From Capnocytophaga cynodegmi DSM 19736 (GTDB taxonomy: Bacteria; Bacteroidota; Bacteroidia; Flavobacteriales; Flavobacteriaceae), in NCBI RefSeq assembly GCF_000379185.1, contig NZ_KB900704.1:1-64000 (forward strand): 64,000 nt of DNA, written 5' to 3'. The stretch's first letter is position 1, and the number at the start of each line of letters is the position of its first letter. This document shows positions 4,347 to 48,908 of the stretch, piece by piece. Made by a program: the position numbers and the translations under genes. The notes below the pieces were generated by a model that saw only the letters and a list, made by a program, of their open reading frames with translations, searched no databases and had not been told where the DNA came from.

Positions 4347-5198
4347 ATGTTTCGGCATCAGGGAAAAAATAGAACAGCAAAGAATAATTTACAAATTGCT
4401 GTAGTGTTATCATTTGTTGCGGGTATCGTTAATGTTGTTGGTTTTTTGTTCTTAGGAAAGTTAACTACCAATGTAACAGGGCATTTTGCACTTTTCATTT
4501 ACGATGTTTCCATAATGGAATTTTGGAAAGGGACTATCTATTTTCTATATATTTTCTCATTTCTGGCAGGTTCTTTTACTTCAGGTTGGCTCATCGAAAC
4601 GGCAAATTATTACAAAAAACACAATATTTTTGTAGCACCTACATTGGTTGAGTGTTTTCTACTATTTAGTGCGATTGTTTTAAATTATTTTTTCACAGAC
4701 TTCCCAACAGATATTACTGCTTGTATATTACTTTTCGCGATGGGAGTTCAAAATTCTTTTGTGACAAAAATTTCTAACTCTGTGGTAAGAACCACGCACC
4801 TTACAGGGCTATTTACTGATTTAGGCATTGAACTTTCCCAATGGATTTACTTAAAAAAGAACAACTTAGAAGTTCTGTTAAAGAAAACTAAATCGAATAT
4901 CAAGCTACGATTATTTATTATTATTTTCTTCTTTTTAGGAGGATTAAGTGGTGGTTTTTTCTTCATTAAAATGGAAATGGCTTTAAAAACCTTGTTTATT
5001 CCTATTATTGTTTTACTTTTGGGGCTATTTTATGACGATTTCCGTTTTGTATATCTTACCAAAAAAAGAAAATATGAAAGTAAAATCCAGCGTAGAAAAT
5101 CTGCAAATACTTTACGAAGACAATCATCTGATAATCATAAACAAAAGAGCAGGAGATATCGTTCAGGGCGACAAAACAGGCGACTCCCCGCTCAGTGA
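4347..5198 (+). CDS. DUF1275 (YoaK-like) integral membrane protein
   Basis: About 283 residues from the ATG at 4347. An in-frame ATG at 4329 is less likely because it touches the panB terminator. About six membrane segments are visible. The sequence VGFLFLGKLTTNVTGHFA and GVQNSFVTKISNSVVRTTHLTGLFTDLG are hallmarks of DUF1275, a widespread family without settled function. The last 41 residues, after the final membrane helix, are extremely basic and polar (RRKS, RRQS, KSRRYRSGRQ). They are encoded by DNA that also encodes the start of the next gene in another frame. This tail is probably not an original part of the family fold. Confidence 0.8.
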   Translation: MFRHQGKNRTAKNNLQIAVVLSFVAGIVNVVGFLFLGKLTTNVTGHFALFIYDVSIMEFWKGTIYFLYIFSFLAGSFTSGWLIETANYYKKHNIFVAPTLVECFLLFSAIVLNYFFTDFPTDITACILLFAMGVQNSFVTKISNSVVRTTHLTGLFTDLGIELSQWIYLKKNNLEVLLKKTKSNIKLRLFIIIFFFLGGLSGGFFFIKMEMALKTLFIPIIVLLLGLFYDDFRFVYLTKKRKYESKIQRRKSANTLRRQSSDNHKQKSRRYRSGRQNRRLPAQ

Positions 5199-5778
5199 AA
5201 TATTAAAAACATACCTAAAACAGAGATACAACAAACCAGGAGAAGCCTTTCTGGGAGTGGTACATCGTTTGGACCGCCCGACTACAGGTATTGTAGTTTT
5301 TGCCAAAACATCGAAGGCTTTATCTCGAATGAATACATTATTTTCTGACAAACAAAATGTTGAAAAAATTTATTGGGCAATTACGGAAAACAGCCCCTCT
5401 CCTACCGAAGGCTCTTTAACACATTGGCTGACCAGAAATCAAGAAAAAAATAAATCAACAGCTCATAAAAAAGAGGTAAAAAACAGCAAAAAAGCCATTC
5501 TAAACTACAAATTACTAAAAAAATTTGACAATTACTATCTATTAGAAATTCAGTTAATTACAGGACGACATCATCAAATTAGGTCACAACTCTCTGCCAT
5601 AGGTTGCGTTATAAAAGGAGATTTAAAATATGGCGCAAAACGCTCCAATCCAGATGGAAGTATTCATCTTCACGCACGAAAATTAAGTTTTACCCACCCT
5701 GTTAAAAAAGAAAAAATTGAAATTACAGCTCCCGTTCCGAATGATAAATTATGGAACGCTTCTAATGATTTATCTTGA
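5074..5778 (+). CDS. RluA family RNA pseudouridine synthase
   Basis: 234 residues from the ATG at 5074 (MKVKSSVENLQILYEDNHL). The open frame extends upstream but that part lies inside the preceding gene and has no family similarity. Catalytic motif HRLDRPTTGIVVFAKT with the invariant aspartate is intact, followed by the LITGRHHQIRSQLS motif of the RluA group. It converts specific uridines in rRNA or tRNA to pseudouridine; the target cannot be assigned. It has no S4 domain, so it is more like the short RluA/RluC-type family. The first 125 bases overlap DUF1275. Confidence 0.9.
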   Translation: MKVKSSVENLQILYEDNHLIIINKRAGDIVQGDKTGDSPLSEILKTYLKQRYNKPGEAFLGVVHRLDRPTTGIVVFAKTSKALSRMNTLFSDKQNVEKIYWAITENSPSPTEGSLTHWLTRNQEKNKSTAHKKEVKNSKKAILNYKLLKKFDNYYLLEIQLITGRHHQIRSQLSAIGCVIKGDLKYGAKRSNPDGSIHLHARKLSFTHPVKKEKIEITAPVPNDKLWNASNDLS

Positions 5779-5805
5779 TAGTTTTGTACTAATTTTAACT
5801 TTTTT

Positions 5806-6633
5806 CTAAAAAATAGCTCCAACTCCAAAACTTATACCCGATGCTTTGCTTCCTGCCAGATTAACATACTGATACTTAACTCCTATGTTATAATTTCGGA
5901 AATAGAATTTGGGTCCGATTGAAAAATGGTAAACATCACTATTCCTGGAAGAACTATATTTCAAATCCGTGTATAAAGAAAATGGCTTGATGAAAATTTC
6001 ATTTCCTAACTCAGTTGCAAACCCAAACTGATTGATTCCGTTAGCAATATAACTTGCTCCAAGTCCCCAATGAAGAGAAACTATCGGAGTTCGTATACGG
6101 AAATATTGACCCGTTAACGTGAATATATCCAATTTACTATTTTTACTTACCAACAATTTTTCCCAAAAATGTAAATATTCAGTTTTTATAGCAAAACGAC
6201 TCCCTAACCTGATTCTTAAATTCAAGTCATTCATAAAAAATCTACCTTTTTCAGAAAAATAATAATTAGAACCTTCTAATCTCCAAAAAACATAATCGCT
6301 TGACTTTGTGTACTTATAGTCTCCCTTAGCTCCTGCATAAAACGGATAATGATTTAACGTGGCGTTATACATTCTACCTTGTTGTTCCAGAGGAGTTTCG
6401 AAAGCTACATAATATGCTAAAAACACGGTCAAATCTAACAAAATCCCCGTAAACATCTCTCTTCCAAAGGAATATGAGTCGGAGGAAGATGTATAGCTTC
6501 CGTCAGAATTTGAAGCTGCTCTACCTTGAATTGGTAATTCTTTAGATAAATTTTCTTTTGCCTCTTCTATTTTACTTTGAGCTGAAATAGAAAAAGTTAG
6601 CATTGAAAAAAGAATTATATAAACAAATTTCAT
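5806..6633 (-). CDS. secreted outer-membrane protein, probable beta-barrel
   Basis: 275 residues with a clear signal peptide (MKFVYIILFSMLTFSISAQ). The mature protein contains many short amphipathic strands with aromatic residues (YNIGVKYQYVNLAG, GISFGVGAIF) and ends in phenylalanine, consistent with an outer-membrane barrel. A Ser/Tyr-rich stretch (about residues 45-60) precedes it. No family is recognised. It is convergent with the RluA gene and has a long (285-base) upstream spacer shared with the divergent 87-residue protein gene. Confidence 0.7.
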   Translation of the reverse strand: MKFVYIILFSMLTFSISAQSKIEEAKENLSKELPIQGRAASNSDGSYTSSSDSYSFGREMFTGILLDLTVFLAYYVAFETPLEQQGRMYNATLNHYPFYAGAKGDYKYTKSSDYVFWRLEGSNYYFSEKGRFFMNDLNLRIRLGSRFAIKTEYLHFWEKLLVSKNSKLDIFTLTGQYFRIRTPIVSLHWGLGASYIANGINQFGFATELGNEIFIKPFSLYTDLKYSSSRNSDVYHFSIGPKFYFRNYNIGVKYQYVNLAGSKASGISFGVGAIF

Positions 6634-6886
6634 CGTAGCTAATTTTATTCATTGTTTAAAACGCTACAAAAATACTAAAATTACCTTATCACAGCAGAAT
6701 ATCACTTTTTTTGATTATAAAACTTTTTTACCAGAAATAATCCTGCTCAACTATGCAGAAGGTTTACTCTATCATAAAAAGCCTTTTCAATGTTTTATAA
6801 AAGTGGAAATACAGGTAAGTTATTAATAACTATAAATTTTAACACGAATACGCAATTAATATTTTGCTCTTATCTCTTTTTTATTG

Positions 6887-6894
6887 TACATTTG
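6887..6894 (+). promoter_or_regulatory. -7 box
   Basis: TACATTTG 24 bases upstream of the start codon at 6919. Confidence 0.5.
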
Positions 6895-6918
6895 TAACCG
6901 AATTAAAAAGAAATAAAT

Positions 6919-7182
6919 ATGGCAAGTATCAGAAATTTAAAAAAAGAGATTAATTACGTTTTCGGAGATATTATAGATAGCGTGTTTCATTGGGAATACA
7001 CAAACGGAAATACGGGCAAAGGTTCAGAACTTATTCAAGAAATCTTGGTTACTTATGACGATTTGATTGAAAAAATTTATCACCGAGATGTAGAGAAAAG
7101 AGGTGCTCATTTAAAACAAGTTAGAAAAGATTTTGAGCAAAAAGCAGGAACTTTTATTGGGAAGTTAAATAAGTTGGGATAA
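6919..7182 (+). CDS. small conserved alpha-helical cytosolic protein
   Basis: 87 residues, no signal peptide, no membrane segment. Charged and helical throughout (NLKKEINYVFGDIIDSV, LKQVRKDFEQKAGTF). It looks like the small uncharacterised Flavobacteriales proteins found alone near tRNA genes. It has its own TAnnTTTG promoter. Codon use is like its neighbours and the reading frame is free of internal stops. Function unknown. Confidence 0.75.
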   Translation: MASIRNLKKEINYVFGDIIDSVFHWEYTNGNTGKGSELIQEILVTYDDLIEKIYHRDVEKRGAHLKQVRKDFEQKAGTFIGKLNKLG

Positions 7183-7222
7183 TTTTTTTCATAAAAAGAT
7201 TTGCAAATTAAAAAAAAGTTAC

Positions 7223-7230
7223 TACATTTG
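7223..7230 (+). promoter_or_regulatory. promoter of tRNA-Thr
   Basis: TACATTTG at the -7 position, with TTGC at 7201-7204 at the -33 position (18-base gap). The tRNA starts 13 bases downstream. Confidence 0.65.
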
Positions 7231-7243
7231 CACCCGCAATAAC

Positions 7244-7317
7244 GCCGATATAGCTCAGTTGGCCAGAGCACGTGATTTGTAATCTCGGGGTCGTGGGTTC
7301 GAATCCCTCTATCGGCT
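7244..7317 (+). tRNA. tRNA-Thr (anticodon TGT at 7278-7280)
   Basis: 74 nt. Acceptor stem gccgata pairs with tatcggc. D-arm is normal (agctcagttggcc...gagc) and the T-loop is ttcgaat. The anticodon stem (cgtga/tctcg) and the T stem (gtggg/ccctc) each contain one U-U mismatch. CCA is not encoded. A hairpin terminator follows. Confidence 0.9.
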
Positions 7318-7325
7318 CAAGGACA

Positions 7326-7354
7326 AAGCCATCTTTATTGAGATGGCTTTTTTT
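7326..7354 (+). terminator. terminator after tRNA-Thr
   Basis: aagccatct/agatggctt stem followed by T7. An apparent upstream ATG of the tex frame at 7343 lies inside this hairpin and is not a real start. Confidence 0.8.
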
Positions 7355-7387
7355 ATTGAATTTATCTACAAATTTCATAACTTCATA

Positions 7388-9514
7388 ATGACAAATATTC
7401 AGTATATTCAAAATCAGAATAATACCTTTCAGAAAAATCAAATTGAAAACACCCTATTATTGCTTTCCGAAGGTTGTACAATTCCGTTTATTGCCCGTTA
7501 CAGAAAAGATAAAACGCAAAACTTAGACGAAATAGCCATTGAGCAAATTTCGAAATGGCAAACCGAATATGAAAACATTCTTAAAAGAAAAGAAACCATC
7601 TTGGCTGCCATCGAAGAGCAAGGAAAATTATCCGATGATTTGAAACAAAAAATCGAATCCTGTTTTGTTCTAAATGAATTGGAAGACCTTTACTTACCCT
7701 ACAAAAAGAGAAAGAAGACACGTGCCGACATTGCTAAAGAAAAAGGATTAGAACCTTTGGCTAAAATTATTATGTCGCAAAAAGTAAATGATTTGGAGTT
7801 TACTGCATCAAAATATATCAGCAAAGAAATTCCCACAGAAAAGGAAGCCTTACAGGGAGCTTCCGACATCATCGCCGAATGGATTAGTGAAAATATTTTT
7901 ATTCGGAAAACTTTAAGGCGTATGTTTCAACGCAATGCAAACATAACTTCGCAGGTGGTTAAAACGAAATCTGAGGAAGAAGAAGCTCAAAAATTTTCGA
8001 TGTATTTTGATTGGCAAGAAAATCTTTTAAAAACGCCCTCTCATCGTATTTTAGCAATGCTTCGAGCCGAAAGTGAAGGTTTTGTTCGTTTGAAAGTTGA
8101 AATCGATTCGCAAGAAGCAATTGATTTTATAGGAAAAACCATAATTAAAACCAAAGGGGAAGTAGCTGATTTTTTATACGACACGATTGCGGATAGTTAC
8201 AAACGCCTTTTAGCACCTTCCATATCAAATGAAACTTTACAAGAAGCTAAGGAACAAGCTGATAACAAGGCTATTCAAATATTCGCTGAAAATTTAAAAC
8301 AATTGCTATTGGCAGCTCCTCTGGGAGAAAAAAGAATTTTAGCCATCGACCCTGGATTTAAAACAGGCTGTAAGGTTGTATGTCTGGATGAAAAAGGAGA
8401 CTTGTTGTACAATGAAACTATCTTTCCGCATCCTCCGCAAAAAGATATTGCTATGGCAACAAAAAAAATTAAATCGATGGTTAATTCCTACAAGATTGAG
8501 GCCATTGCTATTGGAAACGGAACTGCTTCACGCGAAACGGAATTGTTCATTAAAAACATAGCTTTTAGCTCTCCTTTACAAGTTTTTGTAGTAAATGAAG
8601 CGGGAGCATCGGTGTATTCAGCCTCTAAAATAGCTCGGGAGGAATTTCCAAACTATGATGTTACAGTGCGAGGAGCCGTGTCGATAGGTAGACGCCTTTC
8701 AGACCCGTTAGCAGAATTAGTAAAGATTGACCCAAAAGCAATCGGAGTGGGACAATATCAGCACGATGTAAATCAAACAAAACTAAAAGAAAACCTTGAT
8801 TCTGTAGTAATTAGATGTGTAAACTCGGTAGGAGTAAATCTCAACACAGCAGGAAAATCTCTTCTTTCGTATGTCTCTGGAATTGGGGAAAAAACGGCAG
8901 AAAATATTGTAAAATATCGTTCTGAAAAAGGAGCTTTTACAGAAAGAGAAGAACTTTTGAACGTTCCCAGATTGGGTTCCAAAGCCTACCAACAAGCAGT
9001 AGCGTTTTTGCGTATTCACGAAGGAAAAAATCCGTTGGATAACTCAGCTGTTCACCCAGAGGCTTATCCAATTGTTGAAAAAATGGCAAGTGATTTGGGG
9101 ATTTCACCTGAAAAACTCATCGGTAATAAAGAGGCTATAAACAAAATAAATATCAATAAATACATTAATGATAATGTAGGAGTTATCTATTTAAAAGATA
9201 TTCTTAAAGAATTAGAAAAACCTGGACTAGACCCACGAAAATCTGCTAAAATTTTTGAATTTGACCCTAATGTAAAAACATTTGATGATGTAAAAATTGG
9301 AATGATTTTACCTGGGATTGTAAATAACATTACAGCTTTTGGTTGTTTTGTTGATATCGGAATAAAAGAAAGTGGACTTATTCATATCTCTCAACTAAAA
9401 GATGGTTACGTAGCTGATGTAAACGATGTGGTAAAAATGCATCAACATATAACCGTGAAAGTAGTTGATGTTGATATTCAGCGAAGAAGAATTGGATTAA
9501 GTTTAGTGAGTTAA
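7388..9514 (+). CDS. tex: Tex family RNA-binding transcription accessory protein
   Basis: 708 residues from the ATG at 7388. The upstream in-frame ATG at 7343 sits in the tRNA terminator. Domain order is typical of Tex: an N-terminal helical region (GCTIPFIARYRKDKT), a YqgF/RNase H-like domain (ILAIDPGFKTGCKVV, about residue 320), helix-hairpin-helix (VSGIGEKTAENIV, about 500), and a C-terminal S1 domain (GIVNNITAFGCFVDIGIKES, about 640). Tex binds nucleic acid and aids RNA decay and transcription fidelity in the cytosol. It is monocistronic with a strong terminator. Confidence 0.95.
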   Translation: MTNIQYIQNQNNTFQKNQIENTLLLLSEGCTIPFIARYRKDKTQNLDEIAIEQISKWQTEYENILKRKETILAAIEEQGKLSDDLKQKIESCFVLNELEDLYLPYKKRKKTRADIAKEKGLEPLAKIIMSQKVNDLEFTASKYISKEIPTEKEALQGASDIIAEWISENIFIRKTLRRMFQRNANITSQVVKTKSEEEEAQKFSMYFDWQENLLKTPSHRILAMLRAESEGFVRLKVEIDSQEAIDFIGKTIIKTKGEVADFLYDTIADSYKRLLAPSISNETLQEAKEQADNKAIQIFAENLKQLLLAAPLGEKRILAIDPGFKTGCKVVCLDEKGDLLYNETIFPHPPQKDIAMATKKIKSMVNSYKIEAIAIGNGTASRETELFIKNIAFSSPLQVFVVNEAGASVYSASKIAREEFPNYDVTVRGAVSIGRRLSDPLAELVKIDPKAIGVGQYQHDVNQTKLKENLDSVVIRCVNSVGVNLNTAGKSLLSYVSGIGEKTAENIVKYRSEKGAFTEREELLNVPRLGSKAYQQAVAFLRIHEGKNPLDNSAVHPEAYPIVEKMASDLGISPEKLIGNKEAINKININKYINDNVGVIYLKDILKELEKPGLDPRKSAKIFEFDPNVKTFDDVKIGMILPGIVNNITAFGCFVDIGIKESGLIHISQLKDGYVADVNDVVKMHQHITVKVVDVDIQRRRIGLSLVS

Positions 9515-37522: not shown

Positions 37523-37682
37523 CAGGATGTTACCATTTAGTGATGGGTGGATAGGTAACGATTTAGAAATGAGCGGACTGCTTTAAGGCACACTGTTTTG
37601 AATAACCAAAGAACGCTCACTATTATCACTTGCAAAGGTACAGATTTGCGAGGGAAAGTGAGCGTTCTTGTGTGATTTTCTT
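37523..37682 (+). repeat. ~160-bp direct repeat, copy A
   Basis: Aligns without gaps to 39552-39711, at about 88% identity by eye (about 19 mismatches). Contains GTTACC (37529) and GGTAAC (37554) facing each other. Both copies sit just downstream of a minus-strand gene end. Confidence 0.85.
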
Positions 37683-38135: not shown

Positions 38136-38330
38136 ATGATAGTTATGGATTTTTTGAAAGACAACTCAGTATGGATAACTCCTCTTCTTGTTGCTATTGT
38201 TGGAGGTGTTATTAGTGGTATTTTTTACCTGATTAAAAAAGGTGGAAAAAGTAGCAAGCAGACAATTAAAGGTGTTCATAATAGCACTATAAATCAGGTA
38301 AACGGCAATAACAATGAATTTCGGGAATGA
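38136..38330 (+). CDS. small single-pass membrane protein, cargo 1
   Basis: 64 residues (second possible ATG at 38145). A membrane helix spans about residues 13-33 (ITPLLVAIVGGVISGIFYLI), followed by a basic patch KKGGKSSK and a polar tail with HNSTINQVNGNNNEF. The tail's ST-I-N-Q and G-x-N-N pattern resembles the N-terminal beta motif of the next protein (NQSTIVQAKGDIN). The last 17 bases overlap the next gene, so translation is coupled. The topology predicted by the basic patch is C-terminus in the cytosol. No known family; it could be a membrane-damaging effector or an anchor for its partner. Confidence 0.7.
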   Translation: MIVMDFLKDNSVWITPLLVAIVGGVISGIFYLIKKGGKSSKQTIKGVHNSTINQVNGNNNEFRE

Positions 38331-39393
38331 TCAGGAAATAGAAAGTGTTAATCAATCCACCATAGTACAAGCAAAAGGTGACATTAACTTTAATGGCATT
38401 ACAGCTGAAACTGCTATGGAAATCTGCAAATATGTAGTAAAAGCAGAGTTGGCTGTTTATACTCAGGATGCAAGGGTCGAGGCCGAGAAAAGATTATCTG
38501 ACATATCGGAAAAAACAATAGACCGAATAACTTCATTAAAGGAAGATTTATTACATCGTTTCAAAGAACCTGCAATTCAGATGGCATTAAATGAGACATT
38601 TAAAAATTACATCGCATCCGGCAATGAAGACTTAGGTGAAAATCTTATAGATTTACTAATCGAACGTTTGAATGTACAAGAAAGAACAACAGAACAATCT
38701 ATAATAGATGAAGCGAGAAACATAATACCAAAACTATCTTCCAATACGGTTTCATTATTGGCAATAATGGTTTTTAGTAAACTGATATTTCCATACAACA
38801 AAAAACAATATGATGACTTGTTATTGAAGTTGGCTCCGTTAGTGGAAAAATTAAAAAATATCAGTTCATTGGATATAGCCCACCTAAAGCAAGTCGGATG
38901 TGGCTATGGAATATCGGCATTTCATGTTGTAGAACCACTTGAAAAATATCTACTTTCTGATTATGATTTATTTTTTAGACATAGCATTTCATTGGATGAA
39001 TTAAATTATATTTTTCAGAAGTATCCACAACTAATGAATGTTTCTCAGCAAACTAATTTACTATATATAATGGGTTTGTTTTCTATTGAAGGGCAATATG
39101 TGTCTTTTAATGTCACAAACACCAAGACTGTAACAGAAGCATTCAATCAAGCAAATAAAGACCAGTTAATCCCCCTGTTTGAAGATTTGAAAAATAAAGC
39201 AATTCCATTTACAGAAGATGAAGTTTGTAACTATCATATTCAGAAGGATGCTCGATGGCAATATGCATTTGACGTTTTCAAAAATAATCAAATAACAACT
39301 TTCCAATTAAATCCTGTTGGAGTTTATATCGGAATCAGGCAATTGACTAAAATATGCGAAATGTCTATACCAATGTCATTATTCTATGTTTAG
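38314..39393 (+). CDS. LPO_1073/Vpar_1526 family-like protein, cargo 1
   Basis: 359 residues, no signal or membrane helix. The N-terminal tail reads NQSTIVQAKGDINFNGITAET (about 13-33 overall), a polar beta motif followed by a helical region EICKYVVKAELAVYTQDARVEAEKR and then EPAIQMALNETFKNYIASGNEDLGENLIDLLIERL. That order and wording match what I know of the uncharacterised LPO_1073/Vpar_1526 family, a scattered accessory family. The C-terminal half has no recognised motif. It overlaps the small membrane protein gene by 17 bases and lies behind a sigma-54 promoter, between two 160-bp repeats. A role in defence is an inference from location and architecture. Confidence 0.65.
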   Translation: MNFGNDQEIESVNQSTIVQAKGDINFNGITAETAMEICKYVVKAELAVYTQDARVEAEKRLSDISEKTIDRITSLKEDLLHRFKEPAIQMALNETFKNYIASGNEDLGENLIDLLIERLNVQERTTEQSIIDEARNIIPKLSSNTVSLLAIMVFSKLIFPYNKKQYDDLLLKLAPLVEKLKNISSLDIAHLKQVGCGYGISAFHVVEPLEKYLLSDYDLFFRHSISLDELNYIFQKYPQLMNVSQQTNLLYIMGLFSIEGQYVSFNVTNTKTVTEAFNQANKDQLIPLFEDLKNKAIPFTEDEVCNYHIQKDARWQYAFDVFKNNQITTFQLNPVGVYIGIRQLTKICEMSIPMSLFYV

Positions 39394-39551: not shown

Positions 39552-39711
39552 CAGAGTATTACCATTTAACGGTAGGTAAACAGGTAACGATTTAGAAATG
39601 AGCGGAATGCTTTGAGGCACATTGTTTTGAATAGCCAAAGAACGCTCACTATCATCACTTGCAAAGGTACAGATTTGCGAGCGAAAGTGAGCGTTCTTTC
39701 GTAATTTTCTT
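39552..39711 (+). repeat. ~160-bp direct repeat, copy B
   Basis: Partner of 37523-37682. The 5' 40 bases have diverged most; the core around aagaacgctcact...agtgagcgttctt, itself an inverted repeat, is almost identical in the two copies. Confidence 0.85.
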
Positions 39712-44256: not shown

Positions 44257-44802
44257 ATGAATACCTCGAAAAAGGATATAAGTGATTTTTTTACCTCAAA
44301 CGGCTTCAACTTAATAGAAACGGAAGATTTGAGTTTAGATGAGAAGCAGAGCCTGATTAACTTGTGGAATAGAGAATATCCTCAAGGGCTATCTCATTCC
44401 TCTCTAAATAGCTTTAATCACTACTTAGATGGATTAAGCAATGCCAAACACTTCCTATTGAAGGAGCTATCTGATGGACAAATAAAAGGTTGGGCTTTCA
44501 AATTTTATAGAGATAATGCTCAATGGTTTGCCATTATCTTATCTGCCACCATTCATTCAAAGGGTTTAGGTAGAATGATGATTGAGTTGCTAAAATTACA
44601 AGAGTCTGAATTAAATGGATGGGTTATAGACCATGATTTGTACAAAAAAATAGATGGAGATACCTATTTTTCACCTTTGTCATTTTATGAAAAATGTGGA
44701 TTTAAAGTATTGCTCAACCAGAGAATAAAATCGGATGTTTTATCTGCTGTAAGAATTAAATGGATAGCAAAACATTCGGCATCAAGCAATGTTTTCTCAT
44801 AG
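44257..44802 (+). CDS. GNAT family N-acetyltransferase, cargo 2
   Basis: 181 residues. The acetyl-CoA binding loop HSKGLGRMM (Q/RxxGxG/A type, about residue 106) and the late LSFYEKCGFKVL motif are those of GNAT enzymes. Between them is WFAIILSATIHSKG, the core strand. Substrate unknown; it could modify a small molecule, antibiotic or protein. AT-richer than the mob genes, so it is likely captured cargo. The stop overlaps the first possible ATG of the next gene by 14 bases. Confidence 0.85.
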   Translation: MNTSKKDISDFFTSNGFNLIETEDLSLDEKQSLINLWNREYPQGLSHSSLNSFNHYLDGLSNAKHFLLKELSDGQIKGWAFKFYRDNAQWFAIILSATIHSKGLGRMMIELLKLQESELNGWVIDHDLYKKIDGDTYFSPLSFYEKCGFKVLLNQRIKSDVLSAVRIKWIAKHSASSNVFS

Positions 44803-45466
44803 ATTTACAGCGATTGAACATATATTAAAAGCTTCAGAAATAATGGAAATAAGCAATATCCTCACTCGGATACAGCAAATTGAACATGGATTTCAGCATA
44901 TCTTTCATGGAGCAAATGAAATCCTTTCTGCTTATTCAGAAAAACAATGTTTTGAATTTGCTCTTGACGCATTCGAACAAGAAGCCTATCAAGTCCGCAT
45001 GTTGGCAACAACAATATTGGGACGATTAGCGATAACGAATAATGATGCGCTTTGTCTTCTGAAAGCACGAGTAAGCACCGATAAAAATTGGCGTGTGCAG
45101 GAAATGCTTGCAAAGGCTTTTGATGAGGTTTGTAAACTCAGAGGATATGAAGCGTCCTTGCCACTTATCGAAGAGTGGATAAATGACAATAATCCGAATG
45201 TTATCCGTGCTGTAACGGAGGGATTGAGGATTTGGACAAGTCGCCCATACTTCAAGGAAAATCCATCGGTGGCTATTGCTCTAATTGCTAAGCACAAGGC
45301 ACACGAAAGCGAATATCTTCGGAAATCCGTAGGAAACGCTTTAAGGGATATAAGTAAAAAACACACAGACTTGATAAGACTGGAAGTGGAGCGATGGGAT
45401 TTATCCAATCCTCAAGTTCTGTTCACTTACAAACTTGCAACGAAAATATTGAACCCTGCTAAATAA
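44789..45466 (+). CDS. AlkD-like HEAT-repeat DNA alkylation repair protein, cargo 2
   Basis: 225 residues (207 if started at the ATG at 44843, which begins the conserved part). All-helical HEAT repeats: EQEAYQVRMLATTILGRL, TDKNWRVQEMLAKAFDEVC, PNVIRAVTEGLRIWTSRPYF, ESEYLRKSVGNALRDISKKH. This is the pattern of the small AlkD relatives annotated as DNA alkylation repair proteins. AlkD removes bulky cationic alkyl bases without base flipping; whether this relative keeps that activity is unsure. Coupled with the GNAT gene by overlap. Confidence 0.82.
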   Translation: MFSHRFTAIEHILKASEIMEISNILTRIQQIEHGFQHIFHGANEILSAYSEKQCFEFALDAFEQEAYQVRMLATTILGRLAITNNDALCLLKARVSTDKNWRVQEMLAKAFDEVCKLRGYEASLPLIEEWINDNNPNVIRAVTEGLRIWTSRPYFKENPSVAIALIAKHKAHESEYLRKSVGNALRDISKKHTDLIRLEVERWDLSNPQVLFTYKLATKILNPAK

Positions 45467-45481
45467 TCACATTATTTGTAT

Positions 45482-46225
45482 ATGGAATATTGGTTAACTT
45501 CACCTGGAGACCACTTAGATTTTGGTTTTGGAATTACCGCAGAAACTTATTATAACTCGGCTAAATATATGGATGAAGGAAGAGATAAAATTCAAGCCTT
45601 CCAACTTGTAGAAATGCCTATTAATTTCTTATATAGACACTCTATTGAATTAGCCTTAAAATCATTGATAATTATTTTTCATAAGAAATTATCTATCCCA
45701 TACGAGAATGATTCTTGTGAGAGTACAAAACCTAAAATCCTAAGTCAAGGAAAATGGCGACCTCTCTATAGTTGCCATTGGATTGATGAGTTATATCGGT
45801 ATTGGAAAGACGAGTTGCTACTAAAGAATATAACAAGACTTGAATCCCTTGCTAATAAAGGAGATTGGAAAGAATACGAGGATATAACAAAGGCTATTCC
45901 TATTATTGCAAAATACGACAAACAAAGTTCGTTCTTTAGATATCCTGTAACGGAAAATCCGAACTTGGATTTGGAGAAATTCACAATGAAAGAAGTGGAT
46001 ATTGAAACATTACGCAAGATATTTGAACAGCAAGAATCCATGAAAGAAAAAGAGAGTGGAGGAAATGTTATTTTGGCTATAAAAAATGATAATAATGAAA
46101 TTATAAAGGCATACAGACAACAAAAGGAATTATTGACAGAATTATCTAATTCTCTAAAGAAAGTTGCTCATTATTTTTATTGCATCCATATAATGACAAG
46201 GATTGAATTATATAAAGGAAAGTAG
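45482..46225 (+). CDS. HEPN-like hypothetical protein, cargo 2
   Basis: 247 residues from the ATG at 45482 (the longer frame begins at TTG). Helical and cytosolic. INFLYRHSIELALKSLIIIFHKK (about 40-62 overall) resembles the long helix of HEPN-type proteins where an R-x-H-type pair can form an RNase site; the C-terminal helix KKVAHYFYCIHIMTRIELY could be its partner. No direct family recognised. Follows the AlkD-like gene by 15 bases in the same unit and ends before a bidirectional terminator. Confidence 0.65.
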   Translation: MEYWLTSPGDHLDFGFGITAETYYNSAKYMDEGRDKIQAFQLVEMPINFLYRHSIELALKSLIIIFHKKLSIPYENDSCESTKPKILSQGKWRPLYSCHWIDELYRYWKDELLLKNITRLESLANKGDWKEYEDITKAIPIIAKYDKQSSFFRYPVTENPNLDLEKFTMKEVDIETLRKIFEQQESMKEKESGGNVILAIKNDNNEIIKAYRQQKELLTELSNSLKKVAHYFYCIHIMTRIELYKGK

Positions 46226-46367: not shown

Positions 46368-47534
46368 TTATCGTATCAACATGTCCATATCCCTTGCAAT
46401 CTTTTGGTCGGTGATTTGGGCATAGATTTGCGTGCTGGCAATGGACGAATGTCCCATCATCTTGGCGATGCTTTCTATCGGAATACCTGCCTCCAAAGTC
46501 AGCGTGCCGAAGCTGTGGCGACCGACGTGGTAGCCCAGCGGAGTACGAATGCCACACGCCAAGCCTACAGCTTTGAGATGGGTGAGTAGCTTTCCTTTGC
46601 TCATCGTATCGGGGAATATCTTGTAATCTCCTTTGCTTTGCTCCTTGGTGTAAAGCGAAAGTATCTGCTCCGCTATCGGGTGCAGGGGTATCAAACTTTC
46701 CACTTCCGTTTTCTGTCTTGCCTTGCGGATATATCGCTTTCCCTCGCTGTTCGTTTCGATTTGCGAAACTCTTAGGCTCTGCAAGTCGGCAAAAGCCAAA
46801 CCTGTAAAGACGGAGAAAAGAAACATCCTTCGGCTTAGTTCTGCACCTTCCTCCTGTAATGGGAATGCCAAGAGCTTTGCCACATCACCTTTGGATAGGA
46901 AACGAGGTTTGCGCTCTACGGCTTCGTACTTCACCTCTTCAAACGGATTGAAACGTATTGTCCCTTGACTGACGGCTCGGAACATCAATCGGCTCAACCA
47001 ACACAAATGCCTGTTTATGGTTGCAGGGGCATAGCCCTCCTTCTTCAAATGGAAACGATAGTCATCAAAGAACTCTATCGTAATAGCCGTTAGGGAAATA
47101 TCTTCCCCTCCACGACTTCGCACAAAGGAATTGAGCTGCTTGTCGGAAAATCGATTGTTGCTATATGTTCCCACACTCTTGCTTTCTCGTTGGGCTTTGA
47201 GTTCTTCCGCACTAAGGGCAAGAAGTGTCGTCGGATTTCTCCCGATGCCTTGCAGATGGTTCTTCAGAAGCTCGGCACTCACTGCTCCATATTTGTAGAG
47301 CAAGGTATTGTACCCTTGCTCGATTTCCTCTCGAAAAGCTTGCAGGCGTTGGTTGGTCTTCTTGTCCGTTGTTTCTCCTCGCTTCACGCTCCAATCGTGG
47401 GGAATGGTGCTTTCGCCTGTGGTTATCACCACGTTCGCTCCGTCTATGGTGATACGGCAAAGGATTGCTGTTGTGCCGTCCGTTTTGGTCTTGCTCTTAT
47501 TGATATAGAATAGGATTTTGAAGGTACTGCGCAT
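46368..47534 (-). CDS. tyrosine recombinase/integrase (inner)
   Basis: 388 residues from the ATG at 47534 (a longer frame begins at TTG). Arm-binding N-terminus (about 1-90, FKILFYINKSKTKTDGTTAI), SAM-like core-binding domain, and a catalytic domain with HVGRHSF (HxxR), GHSSIASTQIYAQI (GH and nucleophile Tyr). The first catalytic Arg position reads FTGLAFADLQSL; replacement of this Arg is usual in the IntDOT-type Bacteroides group. Intact and probably active. It lies downstream of a second, broken recombinase. Confidence 0.92.
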   Translation of the reverse strand: MRSTFKILFYINKSKTKTDGTTAILCRITIDGANVVITTGESTIPHDWSVKRGETTDKKTNQRLQAFREEIEQGYNTLLYKYGAVSAELLKNHLQGIGRNPTTLLALSAEELKAQRESKSVGTYSNNRFSDKQLNSFVRSRGGEDISLTAITIEFFDDYRFHLKKEGYAPATINRHLCWLSRLMFRAVSQGTIRFNPFEEVKYEAVERKPRFLSKGDVAKLLAFPLQEEGAELSRRMFLFSVFTGLAFADLQSLRVSQIETNSEGKRYIRKARQKTEVESLIPLHPIAEQILSLYTKEQSKGDYKIFPDTMSKGKLLTHLKAVGLACGIRTPLGYHVGRHSFGTLTLEAGIPIESIAKMMGHSSIASTQIYAQITDQKIARDMDMLIR

Positions 47535-47626
47535 AATCTTTTCGTCTGCTGTATGAATGGTAATTACTTTATCTCCCAAAGCTCCTAAACTTTCGGGCAA
47601 AAGCTTTATTGCTTTCTCGGAAAAGC

Positions 47627-48886
47627 TTAGGTGCTTTTGAGGGCATATTCTTGAATGTCACAAAGAGAGTTGTAAATCTTCGGTGAAAGAGAGAAATCGC
47701 TCGAACTCATCGAAGGGTTTCTTTGGGGTGACGTGGGCGTATCGCTCGGTCGTTTGGATGCTACTATGTCCCAGCTTCGGCTTACCGTTTCGATGGGAAC
47801 ACCTCGTTCCAAAGTAATCAAGGTCGCAAAAGTGTGGCGACCAACGTGTGCCGAAAGGGGAATGGAGATACCTGCCCGAAGTTGCAGGGCTTTAAGCTGG
47901 ACACGGTAAGCAGGATAAGCAATGGGAACGAAGAGCGTGGTATGTTCATCCGATTGATACCGCTCTATCAAACACACTGCTTCGGGCAAGAGTTTTACAC
48001 GACAAAGTGTATCTGTCTTTTGTCTGCGGAACTTCAGCCACAATGCCCCCTCATCGTCCGTAAAGAGGTGTTCTTGATTAAGGGCTACCATATCACAATA
48101 GGCTACGCCCGTATAACAGGAAAAGAGAAAGAGATTGCGAGCAGTTTCCAGCTCCACTTCATACGGCTCAAAGGTCAATCCCAGCAATTTATCCAATGAA
48201 GCCCTATCCAAGGCACGAGGTTGTTTGTTCTCTCCCCGTTCAATCTGTATGTGAGCGAACCGTTGTCGCTCGGTTAATCCTTCCCGATACGCCAAACGGC
48301 AGACTTTCTTCACGGCTAATGCCATCTTATGATAATAGGCTTGCGAATGTCCCAGCTTCCCAACAGAATAATGTTGCAAACATTCCAAGAAATCTTCTTC
48401 CATCTGTCCGAAAGGAATGTCAGCCGTGTGGTACTTCTCTCGGATAAAGGCTTGTAAGTGCTTGCGAACAGTGTGATAGCTGTTCAAAGTCGTTGCCCTT
48501 ATTTCTATTCCCACCTTTTGCTCCATATCTTCGACCATTCGGTCGTATCGCTCCAGAAAGGTGCTTTGAGTTTGCATACTGCCTTGAAACAGCTCCTTGA
48601 TGTCCGTCGCTGTAAAGACAATCCCTCGCTCACAAAGGGCTCTATAAGCTGACTGTACCGAGAGAAGCAAGTGTTCCAACTTGCCATTCGTTGCCACTGC
48701 TTCACGGCTCTTGCCGTTCAGTCTGCTCTCACGAGCATTCCACAACTTCGGGTTGCACGATAGCTTACAACTGAATTGGGCGATGGTTCGACCATAAGTT
48801 ATACGCCCCATTATCGGAGCCTGCCCCGACTTGTCCAATCCGCTCTTTTTCAGGTAGAGCAACACCTTGAATTTGTCTGTTTGCAT
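47627..48886 (-). pseudogene. tyrosine recombinase/integrase (outer), frameshifted
   Basis: The frame reads as a full recombinase up to HVGRHTFATLITLERGVPIETVSR, then turns into unrelated sequence (SWDIVASKRPSDTPTSPQRN). In the next frame the expected end is present: LGHSSIQTTERYAHVTPKK and FDEFERFLSFTEDLQLSL with a stop at 47658. One base is missing near 47775 (an ATG codon is reduced to AG before CTG). The broken product lacks the GH motif and the nucleophile Tyr, so it cannot cut DNA. Start chosen at the ATG at 48886. Confidence 0.85.
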
Positions 48887-48908
48887 ACGCTTCTTTTTTA
48901 TGGGCAAA

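Follow-up and report, generated by a model that had tools for sequence, protein, structure and literature searches.

A small membrane protein and an LPO_1073/Vpar_1526 family protein form a conserved, motif-coupled gene pair that may act as an amyloid-type defence switch

Introduction

Bacterial amyloid signalling sequence (BASS) signalosomes composed of an NLR and a BELL protein were reportedly described by Dyrka et al. in 2020. BASS signalosomes are presented as NLR and BELL pairs encoded by adjacent or overlapping genes and falling into several motif families (PMC7889193, PMC8086366, PMC12261475), in which the motif closes a small membrane-helix protein at its C-terminus and opens the larger partner at its N-terminus (PMC7889193). 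The fungal pairs NWD2/HET-S and PNT1/HELLP share this layout of small membrane protein and larger partner, and the core of the RHIM and PP motifs is given as G-(I,V)-Q-(I,V)-G (PMC7885112).

Here we describe a gene pair from the window, the whole stretch of 64,000 nucleotides of Capnocytophaga cynodegmi DSM 19736 that was analysed. Its closest precedent is BASS: the genes are adjacent or overlapping, and a motif occupies the C-terminus of the small putative effector and the N-terminus of the larger putative sensor in 16/16 loci. Unlike in BASS, the larger partner is not an NLR and matches only NF045477, the model of the LPO_1073/Vpar_1526 family; because it lacks an NLR domain, we do not file the pair as a BASS member. 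Within open-licence PMC literature, we found no mention of LPO_1073 by name, noticed no report of a small gene paired with LPO_1073, and found nothing on bacterial amyloid signaling together with phage.

Results

The gene pair in the window

A sequence-only reading of this DNA had placed two open reading frames here, overlapping by 17 bases, the first of them encoding a single-pass membrane protein. Both features hold (Table 1), hydropathy giving one hydrophobic helix in the small protein, with a net charge of -1 ahead of the helix and of +5 over the next 15 residues. Since a near-identical copy in a Muribaculaceae genome (L004) begins at the ATG equivalent to the second start in Table 1, the window effector may be 61 residues long. 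This copy and one from Prevotella disiens (L005) show 97% and 93% protein identity, respectively. Changed codons in the large gene are 20 synonymous and 12 nonsynonymous against L004, and 32 and 24 against L005; the corresponding counts in the small gene (3 and 4 against L004, 3 and 3 against L005) are too low to judge.

Table 1. Features of the gene pair and its flanks in the window
Feature	Coordinates	Strand	Basis or remark
Small membrane protein, putative membrane effector	38136..38330	+	64 codons as listed
Alternative start of small protein	38145	+	would give 61 aa
LPO_1073/Vpar_1526 family protein, putative sensor	38314..39393	+	359 aa; NF045477 E 1.1e-39
Single transmembrane helix of effector, residues 17-33	38184..38234	+	hydropathy
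Effector copy of shared motif, QTIKGVHNSTINQVNGNNN, residues 42-60	38259..38315	+	alignment
Sensor copy of shared motif, QEIESVNQSTIVQAKGDIN, residues 7-25	38332..38388	+	alignment
All-helical core of sensor, residues 31-200	38404..38913	+	AlphaFold2 model, block pLDDT 61-90
Left copy of 153-bp imperfect direct repeat (90%) bracketing the pair	37530..37682		self-BLAST
Right copy of bracketing direct repeat	39559..39711		self-BLAST

The large protein had been assigned to the LPO_1073/Vpar_1526 type, and its match to NF045477 bears this out at 136.6 bits, against a curated cut-off of 45 bits. The match covers residues 28-356, so that the named family model opens right after the motif, and 20/20 aligned sensors match the same model (E <= 0.001). 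The E. coli pair L007 matches phrog_27656 and phrog_19542, the latter also being matched by the window sensor at 1.7e-9; the names of NF045477 and of both phrogs carry no function. Pfam scans of the window sensor and the 20 aligned sensors found no NACHT/NB-ARC or other NLR domain. AlphaFold2 predicts a helical protein in which the N-terminal motif is poorly ordered, with two short low-confidence strands, and structure comparison of this model gave no informative match to known folds.

Relatives and sample

Relatives were gathered by family and profile searches of genomes, a genome-contig scan, viral-contig scans and tblastn of plasmid and phage records. The LPO_1073 family is rare, with matches at E <= 0.001 in 2/395 genomes of the window's phylum (its own included) and in 2/392 of a second phylum, where one is the centre genome itself and the other a weak fragment; a broader profile at the same threshold matched 5/399 genomes of the Prevotella disiens family, including the centre genome. 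Any DNA match to the L007 pair was present in 7/5426 E. coli genomes, extending over >= 80% of the pair in 6. No match was returned by tblastn of phages with the window and L030 LPO queries, by tblastn of plasmids with the L006 LPO query or by blastn of L040 against E. coli, and viral contigs yielded no relative in single-protein scans (window and L006 queries) or in a pattern search.

We kept 16 distinct loci from at least three phyla, defined by a readable LPO start with upstream DNA, after removing near-identical copies (L003-L005, L008-L011, L014, L017-L028, L031, L037-L039, L041 and L048). L033 was left out because its LPO gene starts at the very end of the contig and hence has no upstream DNA, and L029 (Pantoea vagans) because its LPO gene is frame-broken and the N-terminal motif region unrecognisable. 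L013 was kept; its LPO frame stops early, at 161 aa, and its N-terminus is intact. The pattern matches L032, L034 and L036 were dropped, having no LPO ORF at E <= 0.01. The match in G741 (L016) has 21 bits and internal stops. Sensors share 13-22% identity with that of the window and 18-43% with the E. coli one where aligned.

A conserved two-gene unit

The pair is a real, conserved and motif-coupled unit. A small membrane gene lies directly upstream of the LPO gene, on the same strand, in 16/16 distinct loci with intact ends, the two genes overlapping by as many as 20 bases or standing as many as 14 apart. Counting the broken locus L029, in whose upstream DNA no small gene with the motif was seen, the proportion becomes 16/17 loci with upstream DNA. 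Two outcomes had been named as damaging to the sequence-only reading, a small ORF that is not conserved and homologues mainly in core or housekeeping contexts, and neither was seen.

Two effector architectures occur, one with a single helix (n=6; window, L006, L013, L046, L047 and L049) and one with a two-helix hairpin (n=10), and effectors give only weak, scattered matches to Pfam. Net charge over the 15 residues past the last helix lies between +1 and +5 in all 16 effectors; before the first helix it is -1 to -3 for one-helix effectors and 0 to +2 for hairpins. By the positive-inside rule, this bias suggests that every effector tail faces the cytoplasm.

When 201 genomes were searched for the one-helix effector type beside other partners, 4 gave matches, among them one true pair with an LPO gene, in G1346, whose sensor N-terminus the one-helix effector profile also picks up (E 0.0018). 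Two of the three other weak matches, L051 and L052, look unrelated on inspection. In the window's own genome, an 18-row effector profile recovers this copy and two weak matches (E 0.027 and 0.27). A variation on the two-gene arrangement is found on phage contig G1578 (L067, 579-2468), in which one effector is followed by two tandem LPO_1073 genes, the second beginning with the motif and lacking a small gene of its own, as if one effector were served by two sensors. By eye, the effector tails of L013 (1215-1493) and L049 (2370-2597) contain two copies of the motif; HET-s likewise has two repeats.

A shared motif that co-varies between the partners

That the effector C-terminal tail and the sensor N-terminus contain a common polar motif had been noticed in the window (NSTINQVNGNNN / QSTIVQAKGDIN, with cores STINQVNG / STIVQAKG). 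The motif is G/N/Q-rich, and the alignment of its two copies proves to be above chance. Its local score is 39, against a mean of 21 for shuffled tails, and was reached by 1/1000 shuffles; elsewhere in the large protein, 54 stretches of 45 aa score no higher than 20. Across both effector architectures, the effector tail aligns with the first ~35 sensor residues in 16/16 loci, and shuffled tails reach the locus's own score in <= 8/1000 cases per locus, except in the weak case of L006 (58/1000).

The motif differs between lineages, and the differences recur in both partners. Given as effector tail and sensor N-terminus, the pairs read IKQISGNDSININSGRDT / IKQSAGNNSENINSGRDT in L044, AGDNATQSQTGIINNYY / AGDNSTQVQAGTVNNYY in L047, GDNSKGYQAGRDINI / GDNSNSYQAKRDIII in L045 and SIGLQADVIKEVVIN / SIALQADHISGLTIN in L042, the last with a two-residue insertion relative to other loci in both partners. 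Quirks repeated on both sides include NSGRDT/NSGRDT, NNYY/NNYY and a common insertion after LQAD. Summed over own pairs, the alignment score is 818, compared with a permutation mean of 510 (sd 44), and 0/100,000 re-pairings reach 818. Because related loci have related motifs, re-pairing was also confined to three groups, in which case 58/100,000 reach the observed sum. Taken singly, group A (n=8) gives 85/20,000, a statistic from which kinship inside the group is only partly removed; co-variation is not significant in group B alone (n=5; 3784/20,000) or in group C alone (n=3, including the window; 3257/20,000). Co-variation beyond relatedness can thus be seen in group A and in the full set of loci, and cannot be seen in the window's group taken by itself.

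The motif can also be recognised from one partner to the other. When the 16 sensor N-termini were made into a profile and run on 3590 distinct ORFs from the window and the loci, 14/16 effectors came out ahead of all unrelated ORFs, the best of which had E 2.5; the effectors of L012 and the window did not rise above noise. Conversely, a profile of the 16 effector tails placed 15/16 sensors ahead of all unrelated ORFs (the best at E 7), the L012 sensor not being recovered. The motif pairing as such is well supported.

Identical motif residues (n=161) use the same codon in 78 cases and a different one in 83, and the DNA identity of the motif copies is 58%, which argues against a recent duplication as the source of the match. 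The likeness seems to be kept by selection on the protein rather than by recent copying. It is not strict over short times, since the E. coli effectors read STAVQARGD in L007 and SIGVQAGGD in L014, L019 and L021, with identical sensor N-termini.

Many pairs contain near-matches to the core of the RHIM, PP and BASS3 motifs (GIQAG, GVQAG, QIQIG and QTQIG), taken as raw strings; on the same basis, GIQAG occurs in the effectors of L002, L030, L040 and L043, and QIQIG in the L013 sensor and the L049 effector. Such near-matches are absent from the window effector and from both partners in L012 and L044. The LPO pairs may share with RHIM and fungal PP motifs (RIPK1-RIPK3, HELLP-PNT1) a comparable core with N/Q/G flanks; they differ in that the second hydrophobic position is often Ala, and the window copies depart further.

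Mobile and defence surroundings

The sequence-only reading had placed the pair inside a mobilizable element and likened its layout to that of several abortive-infection systems. Phage, mobile-element or defence genes lie in the fetched flank of 13/16 loci; flank lengths are unequal among loci and a subset of neighbours was scanned. The window flank, part of a mobilizable element, encodes a relaxase, an MbpA-like protein, a primase and an integrase. In L007 and L030 the pair sits between P2 gpA and the portal gene. Integrase ends are found in the flanks of L002 and L043, an integrase in L013 and L042, a terminase in L035, a terminase small subunit in L044, a tail fibre in L040, and inovirus Rep and Zot in L045. 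Two loci belong to defence clusters: in L046 the pair directly follows BrxC, PglZ and BrxL of a BREX locus, and in L049 it lies between hsdS and hsdR of a type I RM cluster, with an AAA_5 protein. The fetched flanks of L006, L012 and L047 show no clear mobile or defence gene, L047 having Fic and Bro-N genes.

Half of the loci (L013, L030, L035, L040 and L042-L045) come from phage or virus collections, an origin that biases this count, so that only the other eight speak without that bias. Mobile or defence genes flank the pair in 5/8 of these, and one of the five, L007, is itself an E. coli phage-plasmid.

Beside the L007 pair, three genes (4690-7437) match PADLOC Hp1, Hp2 and Hp3, which, going by the PADLOC naming, may be the three-gene system that Rousset et al. 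reportedly found protective against P1. L007 holds two candidate defence systems in one P2 hotspot. The pair occupies the same P2 site with other neighbours in L014, and L015 has an insertion sequence at this site and a pair match of only 89 bases. This gpA-gpQ interval corresponds to the P2 hotspot described by Rousset et al. 2022, and the E. coli LPO pairs resemble its cargo in sitting there; the LPO pair is not among the systems described as tested in section 10 of that paper (PMC9122126). In PADLOC-DB, no profile matched the window pair (E <= 1), the L012 pair or the L007 sensor (both E <= 0.1), and the L007 small protein gave a weak '2TM' match (E 0.017). A match of the L006 sensor to PADLOC Cas6 (2.3e-4) was taken as chance.

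Discussion

The BASS- and fungal-like layout and the RHIM/PP-like cores lead us to propose a sequence of sensing, seeding, assembly and cell arrest. The LPO_1073 protein, with its helical core and N-terminal motif, would sense a foreign element, most probably phage infection. Once activated, it would cluster and expose its G/N/Q-rich N-terminal motif as a cross-beta seed, which would template its counterpart in the small membrane protein's tail, predicted to be cytoplasmic. The templated protein would then assemble in the inner membrane, and stop or kill the cell. The signal would be homotypic templating of the RHIM or BASS kind, without an NLR, and the motif evidence suggests a working mode like that of the amyloid switches behind cell death in fungi and animals. 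We moderately favour this reading, in which the pair is a two-gene sensor-effector switch of the amyloid-signalling type acting by abortive infection. Defence and amyloid formation by the pair are likely, as predictions from sequence; the LPO protein may be the sensor, phage infection the trigger and membrane damage the outcome.

Other arrangements of the same two proteins can be envisaged. Two adjacent or overlapping genes with a small hydrophobic product first, carried by a mobilizable element, phages and plasmids, would also suit a toxin-antitoxin module maintaining the mobile element, in which the LPO protein holds a small membrane toxin inactive through the paired motifs. However, a motif that is alike on both sides is a better fit to co-assembly than to neutralisation, copies inside BREX and type I RM loci seem in no need of stabilisation, and one contig has two sensors for one small gene; we regard this explanation as unlikely. 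Small membrane proteins are common in superinfection exclusion, and the presence of the pair in P2-like phages, an inovirus and other prophages would agree with a small protein that blocks DNA entry by related phages, with the LPO protein serving as a scaffold that the motif recruits and no cell death taking place. Such a blocker has no obvious need for a partner of 280-400 aa, and the pair is found as well on a mobilizable element and at chromosomal loci for BREX and type I RM. Exclusion is the least probable of the readings considered.

The motif might instead serve for pairing without amyloid, through a two-stranded or solenoid contact by which the small protein anchors a killer LPO protein, soluble by itself, at the membrane. 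No function is assigned to the helical core of the LPO protein, and a paper on the Veillonella outer-membrane proteome tabulates Vpar_1526, a namesake of the family, in its subcellular-fractionation section, with the localisation given as 'unclear' (PMC5491611). Against such an anchor, the cores GIQAG and QIQIG, again taken as raw strings, resemble the RHIM/PP core (PMC7885112), and the gene layout is that of amyloid pairs. We regard the anchor, too, as unlikely.

If the amyloid switch that we favour is correct, it would extend amyloid signalling from the NLRs of filamentous bacteria to phage-borne defence in unicellular bacteria. It would also offer a model of amyloid cell-death signalling that consists of two genes, measures ~1.2 kb and is tractable in E. 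coli, its many natural motif variants being available for testing templating specificity, and would suggest a role for the uncharacterised LPO_1073/Vpar_1526 family. More tentatively, and with somewhat less than even confidence, the pair could rank with the smallest immune switches of the amyloid type. Prion-like templating by a sensor that is no NLR would fire a membrane peptide of 61 residues; P2-like phages, a filamentous phage and mobilizable elements would carry the switch across phyla, and motif codes particular to each lineage would keep each sensor wired to its own effector. In that case, RHIM-like amyloid signalling would depend on neither NLRs nor multicellularity of the bacterium, and phages would trade in it.

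Repeats and other cargo of the elements

Imperfect direct repeats bracket the pair in L005 (4235-4374/6263-6402 and 4437-4695/6430-6688; 85% over 142 and 259 bp by self-BLAST) as they do in the window (Table 1), and the bracketed pair may be a cassette exchanged by recombination. By eye, the longer L005 repeat falls in the 3' end of a mobilization-like gene. Elsewhere on the window's element, positions 44257-46225 encode a GNAT-like acetyltransferase, a HEAT-repeat protein and a 249-aa protein without clear family, and no PADLOC match was found for this cargo. At the end of the element (46368-48907) lie two adjacent tyrosine-recombinase-like ORFs, the first recognised by Pfam and the second by eye.
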